Under the pieces are notes generated by a model. It searched no databases. It worked only from the letters and a program-made list of their open reading frames with translations, and had not been told where the DNA came from. 64,000 bases of DNA. Source: Thermodesulfobacteriota bacterium (GTDB lineage: Bacteria; Desulfobacterota; Desulfobacteria; Desulfobacterales; Desulfosudaceae). Position 1 is the first letter of the stretch. Each line of letters opens with the position of its first letter. Location of the stretch: positions 1 to 64,000 of the forward strand of contig JBFMDX010000007.1 in assembly GCA_040753795.1 (NCBI GenBank), in the 5' to 3' direction. Both the position numbers and the translations under genes were made by a program. Positions 36,257 to 47,031 of the stretch are shown here, in pieces.

Positions 36257-36601
36257 ATGAAAATTTTCGTCAAAGTAATGAAGGCATTGTCAGATGGCAA
36301 CCGGGTCAAAATGCTAAAAATGCTTCAGCGTCGGACAATGTGCGTCTGTGAAATCCGGACCGTTCTCGGTCTGGCCCAGTCAACCGCCAGCAAACACCTT
36401 AAAATTCTGGAAGATGCTGGTTTAATTAAATCTTCAAAAGAAGGGCTGTGGGTCAATTACCGGCTGTCCGATGGCGGTGACAGCCCCTATGCAGCCAGCA
36501 TGCTTGGTAATTTAAGGTACTGGCTGGATGAAGACGAAGCCGTGAAGGAACTGGTCAAGCGTCTGCCGGACATCAGGCGCGAGGATGTCTGCCGCCTGTA
36601 A
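36257..36601 (+). CDS. arsR: ArsR family metalloregulator, locus 1
   Basis: A 114-residue winged-helix repressor. The arsenite-binding CVCEI motif (around residues 32-36) in the alpha-3 helix and the recognition helix STASKHLKILEDAGLI are typical of ArsR. GGAGG lies 5 bases before the ATG. It is clearly paralogous to the ArsR at 45061-45441 (most residues shared, including LQRR, GLAQST, HLKILEDA, GLWVNYR and YAAS). It probably represses itself and the YeeE-type permease gene downstream. Confidence 0.9.
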   Translation: MKIFVKVMKALSDGNRVKMLKMLQRRTMCVCEIRTVLGLAQSTASKHLKILEDAGLIKSSKEGLWVNYRLSDGGDSPYAASMLGNLRYWLDEDEAVKELVKRLPDIRREDVCRL

Positions 36602-36675
36602 TTTTGACTTTATCTATTTATTATAACAAAAAAAATTATCAAACCCAATCCAAAGATGGTTACAAGGAACGGGAT

Positions 36676-37905
36676 ATGATACCGCTTCGAGCTGATGCAA
36701 ACTGGAAACGGGTAACGTTAGCCGTGCTGATTGCTTTGTCCACTCTTTCCATTTATAGCGCGTTAACCGGCTTGTGGGTTCTGACGGCGATACCGATCGG
36801 TTTTTTATTCGGTTTTTTTCTGGAAAAGGCCGATCTCTGTGGATCTTCGGCCTTCAGTGAAATGATCCTGATGAAGGACCGGCAAAAATTTTTGGGCATC
36901 TGCTTGGTCATTGTGGTCAGCATGATCGGTTTTTCGATTCTGTCCGTTGCCGGGTGGATCAAACTTAGCCCCAAACCACTGATTTGGGCCAATTATATCA
37001 CGGGAGGGGTGCTCTTCGGAGTCGGTATCGTGCTGGCCGGGGGCTGTGTTAGTGGATGCCTGTTTAAAACCGCCCAGGGGAACCTGAACTCCATGGCCGG
37101 TCTGGCTGGAATCCCTCTGGGCGTAGCAGCGGTGCTGCACGGGCCGCTTCAGGGCTTCAATAAATTTCTGGAGCATTTTGTCATCAACAATGCCGACGGG
37201 TCCGCCGTGACCTTTTCATCCGTCACAGGCCTGCCATACTGGCTGCTGGCCGTGCTGTTCGGCCTCATCGTTGTCGTTGTCGCGGGTATTTTGAGAAAAA
37301 AGAAAGCGGCTCGTTCCAGCGCCATAAAATGGGCGGAGATGCCCGTTCTGCAACGGATCATCACCCGCCCCTGGAAGCCCTGGCAGGCGGGCATCGCCAT
37401 CGGCATTCTGGCCTGCTTTGCTTATCTGTCTTCCGCCGCCAGCGGCAGAAATTATCCCCTGGGCGTCACCCACGGGGTTTTACACGCCGAACTCCTGCTA
37501 ACCGACGCACCGCTGAAACACGTTTATACGCCCCCGCCGCCTGCTGCTCCCATCGGAAATGGAGCTGTACCTGTAACGGCAAACACAGGGGCTCCGACCA
37601 AAAAGGTTTCCTGGTGGCTGATCCTGGAAGTAACGGCGCTCGTGGCCGGAGCGTATACCAGCGCGAAGCTGTCCAACAAAATCAGATTTATACCCCGGCC
37701 GCCGGAGCAAACGGTTACCGCGTTTTTCGGCGGGCTTCTGCTGGGCGCGGGGGCCGCCATCGCCGGGGGCTGCGTGGTGGGCAACATCATGAGCGGCGTC
37801 GCCCTGATGAGCGTCGGCAACGTCTTATTTATGGTTACGGTCGTCCTGGCCAACTGGGCGACGACATGGTTTTACCTGATGGGCGGCGGACTGTTCAAAT
37901 CATGA
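36676..37905 (+). CDS. YeeE/YedE family permease (thiosulfate or sulfur-compound transport type)
   Basis: A 409-residue membrane protein with two YeeE/YedE (DUF395) halves, each with the conserved cysteine loop: GGCVSGCLFKTAQGN (about residue 120) and GGCVVGNIMSGVA (about 365). ATG 36676 follows AAGGAACGGG; upstream in-frame codons would add a polar, non-conserved tail. Family members such as TsuA import thiosulfate or other sulfur compounds. Here it lies behind an ArsR regulator, so it may instead move a thiol or arsenic-related solute. The central loop (about 300-330) is Pro-rich. Confidence 0.8.
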   Translation: MIPLRADANWKRVTLAVLIALSTLSIYSALTGLWVLTAIPIGFLFGFFLEKADLCGSSAFSEMILMKDRQKFLGICLVIVVSMIGFSILSVAGWIKLSPKPLIWANYITGGVLFGVGIVLAGGCVSGCLFKTAQGNLNSMAGLAGIPLGVAAVLHGPLQGFNKFLEHFVINNADGSAVTFSSVTGLPYWLLAVLFGLIVVVVAGILRKKKAARSSAIKWAEMPVLQRIITRPWKPWQAGIAIGILACFAYLSSAASGRNYPLGVTHGVLHAELLLTDAPLKHVYTPPPPAAPIGNGAVPVTANTGAPTKKVSWWLILEVTALVAGAYTSAKLSNKIRFIPRPPEQTVTAFFGGLLLGAGAAIAGGCVVGNIMSGVALMSVGNVLFMVTVVLANWATTWFYLMGGGLFKS

Positions 37906-39948: not shown

Positions 39949-40629
39949 TTAAATGCCGGAAATCAGCAGCACGCCCGCGGTGATAAGCAATGATCCTGCT
40001 ACGGGATTGATGTATTTGATCACCCGACGGAGTCTGTTAATAACCTCCAGCAGCACGTTGATAAAAACGGACAGCAGGAGAAAGGGAATCGCCAGTCCCG
40101 CGGAAAAAATGGTCAGCAGCAACATGCCCTGGTAAACGGTAGCCTGATTACCGGCGACAATCAGAATCGACCCCAGAATCGGGCCGATGCAGGGAGTCCA
40201 TCCGGCGGAAAAAGCAACGCCTGCGATAAATGCCCCGATATATTTCGTGGTTTTGCCTTTAATTCGAAACCGTTTATCTGCTTTCAGCCATGGGATATGA
40301 ATAATTCCGGTTAGATGAATACCCAGAATCACAATCAGAATGCCGCCGCAGGTTTTCAATAATAATCTGTGCTCCCCGATAAGGCTTCCCAAAAAGGAAG
40401 CGGAGGCGCCCAGCAGAATAAAAATGGTGGAAAATCCCGTGACAAAGGCCAGCGTCGAGAAAAAAACCTGTTTTCTGGCACCGGCCCTGTCGACGCCGGT
40501 GAGGTCATCCAGGGACAAACCGGTTATCAGGGTAAAATACACCGGTACCAGCGGAAATACGCATGGCGTTAAAAAGGACAGCAGACCGGCGCCAAAAGCC
40601 GTAGAATAGGTTATGGTAGTCTCAAACAC
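39949..40629 (-). CDS. ccdA: CcdA-type thiol-disulfide electron-transfer membrane protein
   Basis: A 226-residue protein with six membrane helices. The two redox cysteines sit in the Pro-Cys motifs of CcdA/DsbD: SFLTPCVFPLVPVY and AGWTPCIGPILG. The start is GTG 40629. It carries reducing power from cytoplasmic thioredoxin to periplasmic thiol proteins. It lies 26 bases after the DUF1573 (UGA-containing) gene. Exported thioredoxin-like and Sec/Cys proteins in the same operon are likely partners. Confidence 0.9.
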   Translation of the reverse strand: MFETTITYSTAFGAGLLSFLTPCVFPLVPVYFTLITGLSLDDLTGVDRAGARKQVFFSTLAFVTGFSTIFILLGASASFLGSLIGEHRLLLKTCGGILIVILGIHLTGIIHIPWLKADKRFRIKGKTTKYIGAFIAGVAFSAGWTPCIGPILGSILIVAGNQATVYQGMLLLTIFSAGLAIPFLLLSVFINVLLEVINRLRRVIKYINPVAGSLLITAGVLLISGI

Positions 40630-40655: not shown

Positions 40656-41420
40656 TTACTTCTTTTCCGGGCCCGGCACGGATGGCGCATCCCCGGCTTT
40701 ACTGTTTTCCGAGCCGACCGGCCGGATATTTCCAATAACCGGAATGATGATCGGGTTGTGATCCATTCGGTCGGTGAAAAGCAGAATTTGTTCCGAATAC
40801 GTGCCTACCGTTGTTCTGATATTTTCAATCAGGAACTGATAGGCCTTTTTGCCTTCGACTTCGGTTTCCTTCATTGTATAGCGAAAATTCCCCTGACCAA
40901 ACGTTTCCGTACGAAGAATGGTTGACGGCTCCCGGGCATCCGGAACGGCCGTGACAACCTGGCTGATCGGCTCGCCGATGTTTCCGATTAAAAGCGCTTT
41001 GGGGGGAGTAATGGCCACAAAGGCTTTCACTTCACCCGTCAACTGCAAATTAAATTCCGCATTGGCGGCATCATTGGTTTCCACCCGGACGGTTTTATTG
41101 TTTTTCCCGAGGCGCCCCTTGGTCGATAGCTTCACTGCGATTTTTCCCTCCGACCCCGGAGAGATCAGGCGGTCAAACGAGACCGCCGTACACCCTCACC
41201 CGGCTTTAACGTCTTTGATTTCAAGGTCAGCGGTGCCGGTGTTTTTGATGACAAAATCATGACTGACTTCCTGGCCCTCAAAAACCGCGCCGAAATCATG
41301 AGGAGCAGCATCAAATACAGCAACAGGCTTTCCTTCACCGGCATGAACGAATGCCGCCCCGACAATAAAGCCGAACAAAAGCATAAAACAGAACAAACGA
41401 AAACCGGCACGATGAAACAT
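40656..41420 (-). CDS. Exported DUF1573 protein with Sec-Gly-Cys motif (selenoprotein)
   Basis: Read through TGA 41198-41196, this gives a 254-residue protein. ATG 41420 has AAGGAG upstream. A signal peptide (FRLFCFMLLFGFIVGAAFVHA) precedes the DUF1573 fold: HDFGAVFEGQEVSHDFVIKN, then IKDVKAG-U-GCT at residues 69-78. DUF1573 proteins normally have CGCT at this place, so UGA stands exactly where the first Cys belongs, and homology continues past it (ISPGSEGKIAVKLSTKGR). A 7-bp SECIS-like stem follows. DUF1573 proteins are periplasmic, ASH-like immunoglobulin folds of unknown function. Adjacent ccdA suggests redox recycling of the Sec/Cys pair. Residues 75 (Sec) and 77 (Cys) would form the active site. 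Confidence 0.85.
41168..41198 (-). promoter_or_regulatory. UGA codon with strong SECIS-like hairpin
   Basis: On the minus strand, GGCGGTC (41187-41181) and GACCGCC (41174-41168) form a perfect 7-bp stem with a six-base loop TCGTTT. The loop contains GU, as in the fdhF SECIS, with the G 18 bases past the UGA. Confidence 0.8.
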
Positions 41421-41505
41421 GAAAATCTCCTTTTCTACCGACACGTCCATATATATTGCCCGCTTCCATTGATGCGGTTGCGGTTTTACGCGACAAGGAG
41501 CCTGT

Positions 41506-42168
41506 TCAGTTGGCTAACGCCCCGTTAGTCAGCCGGATCATGCGGCTGGTCATTTTGGCGGCTTCCGGCGCATGGGTGACCATGACAATGGTTTTTCCCG
41601 CCCTGTTCAGCTCCACAAGAAAGCCGAGAATAGCCCCGCCGGTCTCCGGATCCAGATTACCCGTGGGCTCGTCGGCCAGAATTAGGGAAGGATCGTTGGC
41701 CAGCATCCTTGCCAGGGCCACACGCTGCTGCTGGCCCACGCTCAACTCTCCCGGCTTGTGGTCCAGGCGCTGTTCAAGCTGAACCCGGGTTAAAAGGTCA
41801 ATGGCCCTTTCGCGCGCCGCCTCGCCTTTATCGCCGCCAATGAGAAACGGAACCATGACGTTTTCAAGGGCTGTCAGATAGGGAATCAGATGAAACCGCT
41901 GGAACAAAAACCCGATGTGTTGACCGCGAAACCGGCCGCGTTCATCCGGAGAAAGGTCGTAAAGATTGGTGTTGTTGATGGAAACCGTTCCTTCGGAAGG
42001 CGAAAGCATTCCACCCATCAGGAGCAGCAGGGTGCTTTTACCGCTGCCGCTGGGGCCGACAATAGATACAAACTCCCCCGCCTGAACGTTCAGAGACAGC
42101 CGGTCCAGGGCCGTGACTTGTTCCGCGTGATGGGTGTAGGCTTTGCTCGCATTTTCGATACGGATCAT
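41506..42168 (-). CDS. ABC transporter ATP-binding protein, LolD/MacB type
   Basis: A 220-residue ATPase. ATG 42168 follows GGAGG. Walker A GPSGSGKSTLLLLMGG, signature LSVGQQQRVALARML and Walker B SLILADEPTG are complete, with VMVTHAPEAA as the H-loop. The signature has V for the first G. It starts two bases after the stop of the FtsX-like permease. MacB/Lol-type transporters are mechanotransducers or extrude envelope substrates; the substrate is unknown. Confidence 0.88.
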   Translation of the reverse strand: MIRIENASKAYTHHAEQVTALDRLSLNVQAGEFVSIVGPSGSGKSTLLLLMGGMLSPSEGTVSINNTNLYDLSPDERGRFRGQHIGFLFQRFHLIPYLTALENVMVPFLIGGDKGEAARERAIDLLTRVQLEQRLDHKPGELSVGQQQRVALARMLANDPSLILADEPTGNLDPETGGAILGFLVELNRAGKTIVMVTHAPEAAKMTSRMIRLTNGALAN

Positions 42169-42170
42169 TT

Positions 42171-43388
42171 TTATGCCTCCTGAAGCACGACGGACGGATC
42201 GAGTTTGGTGGCTCGCAGAGCCGGAAACAGCGACGCTCCGATATTGAGTATAAGGGAAATTCCCATGGCCCACAGCAGGAGCGTCGGCATGGGCAAGACC
42301 GGTATGGCGACTATTTTCGGGCCCAGATAAACCGCCATGCCGGTGCCGACGAAATACCCCGCGATTCCGCCGACAAGACCGATGACAAGGGCTTTCATTA
42401 AAAAAAGCCGCAGCACAAAACCGGAAGTGGCGCCCATGGCCATCAGGATGGCGATTTCCTGACGGCGTTCATAGACATTGGCATACATGTAGTTGGCGAT
42501 GCTGGCGCCGCCGACAACCACGATGATGGCTAAAAACATCAGGGAAAGTCGCGCCATCAGCCGGTTGGTTTTGATCTGGATGTCCACCACCTGGGTGATG
42601 GTCAGAACCTTGGCCTCGGGCAGCAGCCGGTTGATCTTGCCCACCAGCCCGTCGGATATGGCATTGCAGCAGCCGACGACTTCAATGGCATTGACTACCG
42701 GCCCTTTGCCCGACATATCCTGGACCGTGTGCAGATGAGCGAAAATACGGGAGTCATCGATGGTTCCGGTAACCGGAAGAATTCCGGCAATCGTTAACGC
42801 TTTGCCCATAACGGCAACGGAACCGCCGTCTTTCAAATTCAGGGCCGCGGCGGCATCCGCTCCCACCAGAATTTCATCCGGCCCAAGCGTTTCGATAACC
42901 CGTTTCCGGGCAAGGGCGGCGGGATCCGGTTTGCTGTTCGGAGACGTGTCCGGCACAGCGCCGCATCCGGCCGGTTTGGTAAAGATACCGATTCCCTGCC
43001 AGGCGATCTTGCCGGCAAACTCCTGTTTCGGAAGGATGCCCGTCAATATCCACTGTCTTGCCTCCACCGTCACGGGAAAGGACAGCTTCGGGGAAAGGTT
43101 GTCCAGCCCCTGCAGGTCGGACGTGGTCAACCGGGTGACATATTCTTCCGGGAACACTTCATCCTGCATGTCGGCGCTGTAATAATTCTGAACCGTCGCG
43201 CTTTTGGGCAGAATCAGAATATTGGCGCCCAGGGCATCCAGTTCCCTGGCCACCGCTTTTTCGGAATAGTTCATAATATTGCGAATGGCGACAATGACCG
43301 TAATGCCGAGAATAATCGCCAGAAAACTGGTAAAAAGCTGATTCTTGCGCTCAAACAGCTCCTTCCAGACAATGCTCGAAATTTTCAT
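42171..43388 (-). CDS. FtsX-like ABC transporter permease
   Basis: A 405-residue permease with the MacB/FtsX layout: a first helix (QLFTSFLAIILGITVIVAIRNIM), a large periplasmic domain (about 45-270) and three C-terminal helices, with VYERRQEIAILMAMGAT as the coupling region. The periplasmic part has several cysteines (PAGCGA, VVGCCNA), unusual for the family and in keeping with a thiol-redox or metal role. ATG 43388 follows GGGAGT. It is co-transcribed with the ATPase gene and preceded by the thioredoxin-like gene. Confidence 0.85.
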   Translation of the reverse strand: MKISSIVWKELFERKNQLFTSFLAIILGITVIVAIRNIMNYSEKAVARELDALGANILILPKSATVQNYYSADMQDEVFPEEYVTRLTTSDLQGLDNLSPKLSFPVTVEARQWILTGILPKQEFAGKIAWQGIGIFTKPAGCGAVPDTSPNSKPDPAALARKRVIETLGPDEILVGADAAAALNLKDGGSVAVMGKALTIAGILPVTGTIDDSRIFAHLHTVQDMSGKGPVVNAIEVVGCCNAISDGLVGKINRLLPEAKVLTITQVVDIQIKTNRLMARLSLMFLAIIVVVGGASIANYMYANVYERRQEIAILMAMGATSGFVLRLFLMKALVIGLVGGIAGYFVGTGMAVYLGPKIVAIPVLPMPTLLLWAMGISLILNIGASLFPALRATKLDPSVVLQEA

Positions 43389-43424
43389 CACATCGACTCC
43401 CTCTTTGTTCTCAGACCGTTTTGG

Positions 43425-44201
43425 CTACTTGCAGGTTTTTCCGGAACCTGCCGGACAACAGCCGCCGCTCTGCTGCTTGCTTTTCAGCGCGGTCAATAAC
43501 GTGTCCTTGTCGGTTGCGCCGGTAAATTTCCCGATCATCCCGCCCGGAGACGCCAGCATTGCGGTTATGGGATCAACGACACCTTTTCCATCAATTCCCA
43601 GAATGCTCATCAGCCGCTGCTCCGACGGGCCGGCATCCTTGAAAATGACCACTTCCGTCTGACCCTCGAACATCTTATCGCTCGTAAAATCCTTCACCCC
43701 CTTCATGGCGCTGATATTTGCCTCGGCGTTTTCACCCGGAACGCAGACAAAAACGATTTTCCGGTCCTGGAGCCCTTTCAGGCACTGGGCCGTCAGCGGC
43801 CCCAGGATGGCCTCCTTCACCGCTTGTTCGGGAAAAACCTGCGGAAAACCACCGGTCACCGCGCCGTTTGGCGCGATGACAAGCACCAGCGGCATGGGAG
43901 CCCGGTCGAGTTTATACTGGTTCACCACATCGCGCTGCCCTGGATCCTTGATATTAACAAAATAGGCATCGGCCTTGTCTTTCAGGCCGGCCGCAATCGC
44001 CTCAAACCCGGCTTGCTTCTCCTTGATGGCATCGTCCATTTCCGCATAAAAAAAGACCAGGGCATATCGATCCTTCTTCCATGAGGCTTCAAAGGCATTC
44101 ATCCCGGAACCTGTGCCCGGGGAATCCGCCGACCAAGCCGAGATCGCCGTCAAAGAGGCAAAAAACAGTACAACCATTCCGATCAAAAAACTTTTTTTCA
44201 T
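43425..44201 (-). CDS. Exported thioredoxin-fold protein with Cys-rich tail
   Basis: A 258-residue periplasmic protein. ATG 44201 has GGAG upstream, and a signal peptide (FLIGMVVLFFASLTAISAWS) follows. Thioredoxin-like strands are seen (YALVFFYAEM, DAYFVNIKD, PLVLVIAPNG), but the CxxC active site is replaced (AEMDDA). Instead the C terminus ends in CCPAGSGKTCK, which might bind a thiophilic ion. It is first in the operon with FtsX-like permease, ATPase, DUF1573 and CcdA. A role in metalloid or thiol handling is inferred. Confidence 0.65.
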   Translation of the reverse strand: MKKSFLIGMVVLFFASLTAISAWSADSPGTGSGMNAFEASWKKDRYALVFFYAEMDDAIKEKQAGFEAIAAGLKDKADAYFVNIKDPGQRDVVNQYKLDRAPMPLVLVIAPNGAVTGGFPQVFPEQAVKEAILGPLTAQCLKGLQDRKIVFVCVPGENAEANISAMKGVKDFTSDKMFEGQTEVVIFKDAGPSEQRLMSILGIDGKGVVDPITAMLASPGGMIGKFTGATDKDTLLTALKSKQQSGGCCPAGSGKTCK

Positions 44202-44261: not shown

Positions 44262-44657
44262 TCAGGCGTTCCGGCCTGTCTGTCTATTGTTGTTACTCTT
44301 GTAGTTTATCTGGCCGCTGTCACAGGCCGCGATATGCCCCAGAAAAAGCCGGTCCCGGCTGACATCCGGATCCGCCTTCAGGGATTCCGCCAGCCACCTG
44401 ACCAGCGGCCGTATGTCCGGATCGCCGGTTGCGTCCGTCAGCCGATAATATACCCAGCGGCTGTCCTTGCGGGCGGTCACAAGCCCCGCTGTCAGCAGAA
44501 TCCCCATGTGCCGGGACACCGTCGGCGCCGATACTCGCAGCAACTCCGCGATATGGCAGGCGCAGAGTTCTTGCTGATGGGTCAGGGCCATCAGCACCCG
44601 CACCCGATTGCCGTCTGAAATCGCCTTGGTTATCAGTATTGTTTTCTTCATATTCAT
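44262..44657 (-). CDS. ArsR family metalloregulator (third copy, distinct subtype)
   Basis: A 131-residue winged-helix repressor. ATG 44657 follows GGGAGG at 10 bases. The helix-turn-helix (APTVSRHMGILLTAGLV) and the metal-type motif ELCACHIAELL are seen. Unlike the other two ArsR proteins here, it has CACH for C(V/A)CE. A palindrome lies just upstream. It probably controls the minus-strand thioredoxin-like/ABC/DUF1573/CcdA operon that starts 61 bases downstream. Confidence 0.85.
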   Translation of the reverse strand: MNMKKTILITKAISDGNRVRVLMALTHQQELCACHIAELLRVSAPTVSRHMGILLTAGLVTARKDSRWVYYRLTDATGDPDIRPLVRWLAESLKADPDVSRDRLFLGHIAACDSGQINYKSNNNRQTGRNA

Positions 44658-44689
44658 TTGGCGCCTGCCTCCCAACGCTATTTTTATAT

Positions 44690-45060: not shown

Positions 45061-45441
45061 ATGAACACATTCATTAAAACAGTCAAGGCGCTTTCCGACC
45101 CCAGCCGGGTAAAAATTGTCAAGCTGTTGCAGCGCCGATGGATGTGTGCCTGCGAAATACAGGAGGCTCTGGGCCTGGCGCAATCCACGGTCAGCCGGCA
45201 TTTAAAAATACTGGAAGACGCCAGCCTGATCCTTTCTTCCAGGGACGGGCTATGGGTCAACTACCGGCCGTCCGAAGGCGGGGAAAACCCATATGCGGCC
45301 AGCCTGCTGGGAAACCTTCGCCACTGGCTGGAAGACGACGAGGCCGTAAAAGAGCTGGTTAGACGCCTGCCTGGCATCCGGCGGGAGAAAATGTCTGCCG
45401 CCTGCAAGCCTGATTTCGGATATCGTCACGAGACGAAATAA
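45061..45441 (+). CDS. arsR: ArsR family metalloregulator, locus 2
   Basis: A 126-residue ArsR repressor with the arsenite-binding CACEI and helix STVSRHLKILEDASLI. It is a close paralogue of the protein at 36257-36601, with an extra C-terminal tail bearing one more Cys (SAACKPDFGYRHETK). AAGGAC lies upstream. It is followed, after a decayed gene fragment, by the ArsP-like permease and the ars genes, which it probably represses when arsenite is absent. Confidence 0.9.
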   Translation: MNTFIKTVKALSDPSRVKIVKLLQRRWMCACEIQEALGLAQSTVSRHLKILEDASLILSSRDGLWVNYRPSEGGENPYAASLLGNLRHWLEDDEAVKELVRRLPGIRREKMSAACKPDFGYRHETK

Positions 45442-45576: not shown

Positions 45577-47031
45577 ATGCATATTACAGAATTTATTCTA
45601 TCCCTTCTTAGCGGCGGCCTTGGAAACCTTGCCGCCTATCTTGCCGCCCATGTCTTGCTGTGCCTGGTTCCCGCCTTCTATATCGCGGGCGCAATGAGTG
45701 CCCTTATTCCCAAAGAGTCGGTCACCCGCTTTCTGGGCCGCAACGCGCCGAAACGGGTCGCCTATCCGGCTGCCTCCCTGGCCGGATCGTTGCTGGCGGT
45801 CTGCTCCTGCACCATTGTCCCCCTTTTTGCCGGAATTTATAAAAAAGGCGCGGGAATCGGCCCGGCCATCACGTTCCTCTTTTTCGCGCCAGCCGCCAAC
45901 ATTCTGGCGCTGGTATACACCGGCAGCATCATTGGTCTCGACCTGGCCTTTGCCCGCCTGTTCCTTTCCCTGACTTTCGGGATCGGAATCGGCATGATCA
46001 TGGCACTGATTTTCTCGCGTGAAGACCTGGCCCACGACAGGGAATCCGATGCTATATTCGCCGGCCAGGGGAAAATGCAGCGTTCCTCACTGGTTTTCCT
46101 GTTGCTTTTAGTGGCCATGCTGCTGGCCGGTACATTCAAAATCAGCCTTTTAACTGATTCTTACGCACAGATCACGCTTCCCATTACGGGCATGGATCGC
46201 TTCCAGGACTTCCTCTACCGCTTAATCCCTTACGATACCGGCAAAGGGCAGGAAGGCGTAACCGCCCAGGGCGCGATTCTGATCGGGCTGCTGGTCCTCA
46301 TCGGTTTGGCGTCCTGGAAGGGACTCAATAAGCTTTACGAGGGCCTCACCGCCTGGACGTGGATCGCCATGGGCCTGGTCGGCCTGACCCTTCTGACCGC
46401 GGCGCTTGGCATGTCTCCCCACGAAGGCGGGCTGGACGTAAAATTTACCGGGCGTTTCTTCGGCGTCCTGCTGGCACAAGCCGCTCTCGTCTGGCTGATG
46501 TTCAAGCGCCTGAGCGAAGATGAGCTTTATGGGTGGCTGACTGAATCCTGGTTCTTCGTCAAACAGATTTTTCCGCTGCTGGTGGGCGGTGTGTTCGCCG
46601 TGGGCGTTATCCGCATGCTGATAGAGCCCGAATGGATCAAGGCCCTGGCCGGTCACAACACGATTCCGGGCAATCTGGCCGGAGTCGTCTTCGGCGTGTT
46701 CATGTACTTTCCGACCCTGGTTGAAGTTCCCATTGCCAACATGTTTCTCAGCCTGGGCATGCACCGGGGCCCGTTACTGGCCTACCTGATGGCCGACCCC
46801 GAACTCAGCCTGCAAAGCATCCTGATGATCTCGGCCATCATCGGAAGAATCAAAACCTGGACATATGTCGGCTGGGTGGCGCTCTTCAGCACCCTGGCCG
46901 GATTGCTTTACGGGTCCTGGGTGGATGGCACGCCGCTTGGCTTGCTTGTTCTGTATCTTGCCGTAATGATCGCCGGGTTGGGCGTGGCCCTGTGGCTGGT
47001 GGGACGCCGCAATGAAAAAAGGAACAGATGA
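45577..47031 (+). CDS. arsP: ArsP-like permease (DUF318 family)
   Basis: A 484-residue membrane protein with about ten helices. ATG 45577 follows AAAAGGAG. The DUF318/ArsP signature is clear: VCSCTIVPLFAGIYKKG, then FLFFAPAANILALVY, and in the second half FMYFPTLVEVPIAN. ArsP proteins export trivalent organoarsenicals, with conserved Cys near the first motif; some relatives are of unknown substrate. Its stop overlaps the start of the next gene. A truncated copy of its 3' end lies at 39668-39796. Confidence 0.82.
   Translation: MHITEFILSLLSGGLGNLAAYLAAHVLLCLVPAFYIAGAMSALIPKESVTRFLGRNAPKRVAYPAASLAGSLLAVCSCTIVPLFAGIYKKGAGIGPAITFLFFAPAANILALVYTGSIIGLDLAFARLFLSLTFGIGIGMIMALIFSREDLAHDRESDAIFAGQGKMQRSSLVFLLLLVAMLLAGTFKISLLTDSYAQITLPITGMDRFQDFLYRLIPYDTGKGQEGVTAQGAILIGLLVLIGLASWKGLNKLYEGLTAWTWIAMGLVGLTLLTAALGMSPHEGGLDVKFTGRFFGVLLAQAALVWLMFKRLSEDELYGWLTESWFFVKQIFPLLVGGVFAVGVIRMLIEPEWIKALAGHNTIPGNLAGVVFGVFMYFPTLVEVPIANMFLSLGMHRGPLLAYLMADPELSLQSILMISAIIGRIKTWTYVGWVALFSTLAGLLYGSWVDGTPLGLLVLYLAVMIAGLGVALWLVGRRNEKRNR

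Follow-up and report, generated by a model that had tools for sequence, protein, structure and literature searches.

Selenoproteins carrying a DUF1573 domain have been tabulated previously. OS_HP2 (pfam07610) is listed with the motif UxC in one published table (PMC2398784). An entry reading "DUF1573 domain-containing protein", with the motif UGC, is found in tables of two further papers, both of which credit it to Zhang and Gladyshev 2007 (PMC9312934; PMC13188914). The OS_HP2 family is also modelled in NCBIfam, as NF041425. The original prediction, made from the DNA letters of the locus studied here, knew of no described selenocysteine (Sec) form of DUF1573. The suggestion of novelty falls, because these tables name both the DUF1573 UGC and the OS_HP2 UxC forms. 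Thus, the selenoprotein family is already known, and the less expected part is the operon setting. In the literature searched, DUF1573 alone is named in three papers and no report of DUF1573 together with CcdA was found, which does not make the setting unpublished.

The locus lies within the first 64,000 nucleotides of contig JBFMDX010000007.1 of a Thermodesulfobacteriota genome, a stretch referred to below as the window. The DUF1573 copy in the window is like OS_HP2 (DUF1573, PF07610; NF041425) in its domain, in its U-G-C column and in a score above the cut-off. It is unlike other OS_HP2 members in belonging to a divergent clade, in its gene neighbourhood and in the register of its hairpin. 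The features of the locus are collected in Table 1.

Table 1. Coordinates of the features at the Sec-DUF1573 locus, with the basis of each assignment.
Feature	Position in window	Strand	Basis or remark
Sec-DUF1573 (OS_HP2 family) gene	40656..41420	minus	254 aa with UGA read as Sec
UGA codon, predicted Sec residue 75 (U of U-G-C)	41196..41198	minus	frame and family column
Cys77 codon, a candidate resolving or partner Cys within U-G-C	41190..41192	minus	alignment of 27 sequences
Bacterial SECIS-like hairpin, 7 bp and 6-nt loop UCGUUU	41168..41187	minus	folding, background counts
CcdA/DsbD transmembrane electron carrier	39949..40629	minus	PF02683, 63 bits (cut-off 27.1)
ABC transporter ATPase, LolD/MacB-like	41506..42273	minus	PF00005, 121.5 bits
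FtsX/MacB-type permease	42171..43391	minus	PF02687, PF12704
Thioredoxin-like protein with Cys-rich tail, probably secreted	43425..44201	minus	PF13848, weak, below cut-off
ArsR/SmtB-type regulator, first gene of probable operon	44262..44675	minus	NF033788, 80.3 bits (cut-off 55)

The DUF1573 gene is carried on the minus strand, running from 41420 to 40656; the strand had been left unstated in the original prediction. With UGA read as Sec, it forms a single 254-residue frame containing one UGA, at residue 75, in the context DVKAG-U-GCTAVSF. Under genetic code table 11 the same DNA falls into two frames, one of 84 residues that starts from an ATG at 41450 and one of 159 residues. The Sec reading therefore restores a gene that an annotation by table 11 would cut in two or mark as defective. 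The start ATG at 41420 is preceded by AAGGAG at a spacing of 6 nt, and the in-frame ATG upstream, at 41450, is a possible alternative. By eye, the N-terminal hydrophobic stretch resembles a signal peptide. The coordinates and the alignment column confirm that the frame stops at a UGA in the column that holds the first Cys of Cys-Gly-Cys in DUF1573 homologues. The second cysteine of the motif, Cys77, is invariant across the 27 aligned sequences. Homology had also been predicted to continue past the UGA, and the Pfam DUF1573 match (82.7 bits) does so, covering residues 36–131.

Against NF041425 (OS_HP2_seleno) the window copy scores 114.5 bits, where the curated cut-off is 100, and it has UGA, predicted to be Sec, at the first position of C-G-C. 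Three DUF1573 copies are present in the host genome, an assembly of 4.75 Mb in 41 contigs that is 99.8% complete: the window copy and C4, each with one TGA, and C5, with none. A family match was found in 175 of the 194 relatives searched (own genome included), and it was above the cut-off in 166. One TGA is present in 133 of the best 150 matches listed and none in the other 17 (hand count). That is, Sec forms of DUF1573 dominate the best-scoring OS_HP2 matches in the order. The U-G-C column was then compared among 67 distinct copies, including the host's own three, after removal of copies that repeated another over the 120 residues following the site. The codon is TGA in 58, TGC in 8 and TGT in 1, proportions that are not an unbiased frequency, since high-scoring matches and long contigs are over-represented among these copies. 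The relatives thus carry UGA too, with a Cys codon in 9 of 67 as the only other state, which does not refute the original prediction. Placing the Cys label on the tree takes four changes, at least three of them required by well-supported branches; Sec and Cys have thus been exchanged more than once.

The closest orthologue found, in genome G304, pairs with the window copy on the tree (support 100/98), and the two are joined next by a copy from a named Desulfobacteraceae genome, L090 (100/99), which has UGA. Near the L090 DUF1573 no match to the window's neighbour genes was found. The window copy is 58–59% identical to that of G304 and 43% identical to the closest relative that the named genomes yielded. 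In a comparison of the window copy with that of G304, dN/dS is 0.30 before the UGA (74 codons) and 0.26 after it (164 codons); with dS about 1.1 and 1.0, respectively, these ratios are rough. They indicate that purifying selection acts on both sides of the UGA and persists downstream of it.

In the window copy, the stem GGCGGUC (41187–41181) pairs with GACCGCC (41174–41168) around the UCGUUU loop, and 8 nt separate it from the UGA. The 41-nt stretch examined folds at −20.9 kcal/mol (z −4.15), and none of 200 dinucleotide shuffles folded as well. On both strands of the window, 8 of 2159 TGA-led 41-nt stretches reach −20.9 kcal/mol or lower. A perfect 7-bp stem with a 4–8 nt loop, placed 5–15 nt from the TGA, is found in 12 of 2158 stretches, this one included. 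The background rate of a comparable fold or stem in the window is thus about 0.4–0.6%. This stem (nt 12–18 with 25–31) pairs 29.6% across the family. In G304 the fold is only −9.8 kcal/mol.

Across the family, a different register is conserved: nt 16–20 pair with nt 27–31, counted from the U of UGA. Pairing in this family stem is 89.3% of 290 cells, of which 33 are double-sided, and four of the five pairs change on both sides. Among 500 shuffles, which ignore the relatedness of the sequences, none equalled the family in pairing, in double-sided cells or in covariation score, whereas 12 of 500 reached its count of changed pairs and 41 of 500 its count of pair types. When the register is slid, pairing is 33–49%. 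A six-pair version of the family register is 79% paired in the 58 Sec copies versus 39% in the Cys copies, where the register is lost. In 11 other registers the Sec copies are 28–61% paired, and the top one (61%) is rivalled by the Cys copies (57%). With z below −2 in only 14 of 31 Sec copies (mean −1.5), folding energy is weak evidence by itself. Judged by eye in the family register, the window copy makes two of the five pairs and G304 four. Since the family register covaries and the window stem is not common to the family, the sequences indicate that the family does have a hairpin here and that the strong stem of the window copy is its own variant of it. What had been predicted, a 7-bp stem at a suitable distance from the UGA, is thus present and folds strongly as a SECIS-like hairpin; as to its exact pairing, it is private to this copy and outside the family register.

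The genome encodes the means to read UGA as Sec. All four components that the original prediction named for checking were found: tRNA-Sec (75.1 bits, cut-off 47), SelB (372 bits), SelA (603 bits, encoded on the window's own contig) and SelD (360 bits). The host selD (G000:C2:321613-322539) contains one in-frame TGA, and by its sequence SelD is probably itself a selenoprotein. Among 10 other UGA-containing frames of the window, none exceeded a selenoprotein model cut-off among the matches listed.

If the UGA were a true stop, the gene would be a truncated or decayed paralogue. The 84- and 159-residue frames of table 11 agree with such a reading, as does a hairpin register unlike the family's. 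It fits poorly, however, because it does not predict a dN/dS of 0.26 after the UGA, a value close to the 0.30 before it; the UGA is shared with G304 and with 58 of 67 copies, and the full Sec machinery is encoded. We consider a true stop very improbable. That UGA stands for some other amino acid, through a changed code or chance suppression, is barely credible: the column holds UGA or a Cys codon in all 67 distinct copies, no copy having been set aside for a different residue, and a covarying hairpin follows the UGA in a genome that encodes the Sec machinery. Selenocysteine in place of the first Cys, as originally predicted, is strongly supported by the machinery, the column, the family hairpin and selection, and the window gene almost certainly encodes a selenoprotein of the OS_HP2 family.

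The genes around it are all on the minus strand, in the order ArsR, thioredoxin-like, FtsX, ABC, Sec-DUF1573 and CcdA, with short gaps or overlaps; ccdA lies 26 nt downstream of the Sec-DUF1573 gene. The genes from ArsR to CcdA form a probable operon. The probable start of the ABC ATPase is an ATG near 42168, and none of the best 25 of its 191 NCBIfam matches is above its cut-off. The FtsX permease has homologues in seven of seven related clusters compared and, by eye, a GCC motif common to these relatives. The PF13848 match of the thioredoxin-like protein has an E-value of 3.7e-4 (20.8 bits, cut-off 27), and no canonical CXXC was seen in it by eye. On either side of the operon are plus-strand regulator-transporter pairs. 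An ArsR-type regulator at 36257–36601 is followed by a YeeE/YedE-type sulfur transporter (region 36257–37905), and another, assigned by eye (45061–45441), by an ArsP-type permease (45577–47031). These flanking pairs suggest a region responding to metals or sulfur species. The neighbourhood is like those of the Tso/Sao selenoproteins in its DsbD-like membrane part, its ArsR-type regulator and its efflux permease. A Tso/Sao system as such was rejected, with scores of 52.7 for TsoB (cut-off 805), 43.2 for TsoR (115) and 66.4 for SaoE (325).

An AlphaFold2 model was built from the 27 sequences with Cys in place of Sec. It has a mean pLDDT of 91.3 and consists of a run of beta strands, with residue 75 and its U-G-C motif between strands 66–73 and 78–82. 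Foldseek matched it to Ig/PapD-like domains, e.g., that of HYDIN (2e6j, target TM 0.75). The matches are Ig-like domains of ciliary, adhesion and antibody proteins, together with the P. gingivalis protein 2qsv; they speak to fold only, and not to function.

The window gene is thus predicted to encode a secreted, two-domain, Ig-like OS_HP2 (DUF1573) selenoprotein. Its UGA would be decoded as Sec by SelB and tRNA-Sec, guided by the hairpin just downstream. The Sec-Gly-Cys turn between the two model strands may serve as a periplasmic thiol/selenol redox centre, and the neighbouring CcdA would pass electrons across the membrane to keep it reduced. A periplasmic, redox-active Ig-like protein is suggested because the fold prediction, the signal-peptide-like helix and the gene order fit it. 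The redox mechanism of the U-G-C site, which is drawn from the neighbours and the model, is held tentatively, at a little under an even chance. Further, the window copy may serve an ABC/FtsX exporter that is under ArsR control and is partnered by a Cys-rich thioredoxin-like protein; metal or thiol stress would be its most likely task.

The main rival to the redox reading also has Sec being made. In this rival, the U-G-C site would bind a soft metal (for instance copper, mercury or arsenic) instead of cycling as a redox pair, and the operon would act as a metal-detoxification exporter. The three ArsR-type regulators and the ArsP-type permease described above would suit a metal site, as would the Cys-rich tails of the thioredoxin-like partners and the GCC motif of the permeases (by eye). 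CcdA, however, adjoins the Sec-DUF1573 gene, and CcdA carries reducing power, not metal. Membership of the ArsR family need not mean metal either, as some ArsR-family proteins sense sulfur species, and no metal-specific NCBIfam permease model is above its cut-off among the matches listed. A soft-metal site is a serious possibility that falls well short of being probable. The unusual gene cluster hints at a periplasmic role in either redox chemistry or metal handling. The wider proposal is that ArsR, thioredoxin-like, FtsX, ABC, Sec-DUF1573 and CcdA make up an undescribed periplasmic system, in which a selenol reductase, or else a selenol metal carrier, is supplied by CcdA or a MauE-like protein and acts together with ABC/FtsX. 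We regard this proposal as speculative and rather unlikely; if true, it would be the first concrete physiological setting for OS_HP2 selenoproteins. The CcdA, ABC/FtsX and ArsR setting offers a handle on the role of a widespread selenoprotein family.

Of 389 genomes searched in the order, 8 have the thioredoxin-like gene, the host among them, and in all seven others the thioredoxin-like, FtsX and ABC genes adjoin one another. Among these seven clusters, only that of G304 also has ArsR and DUF1573 matches in the compared stretch. The DUF1573 gene of G304 carries UGA and is separated from the ABC gene by genes for a rhodanese and a MauE-like protein; no CcdA match was found in the compared stretch. 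No DUF1573 match was found in the other six clusters, L107–L112, where the trio stands without one nearby; L110 starts about 600 nt from a contig end. In five of the six (L107–L109, L111 and L112) a small protein with several cysteines precedes the trio (by eye). Across L107–L112, tails such as CGDPKCKDPVCP on the thioredoxin-like side and a GCC motif in the permease (both by eye) suggest metal handling.

The usual setting of DUF1573 in the order is different. Among 46 DUF1573 loci, of which at least L054 and L091 look like the same contig, a HAD-phosphatase-like gene lies just downstream in 29 and a PriA-like gene upstream in 23 (names by eye). The window copy is of the same family as this common copy, and most copies read have the UGA site; its neighbours are CcdA and ABC, not PriA-like and HAD-like genes. 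In two other loci, L106 (2497–4234) and L087, a rhodanese, a MauE-like gene and DUF1573 stand in a row, with Sec in L106 and Cys in L087. The window resembles these two in that DUF1573 adjoins a membrane protein of a redox-associated family, and differs from them in that this protein is CcdA, with no rhodanese or MauE-like match within 7 kb.
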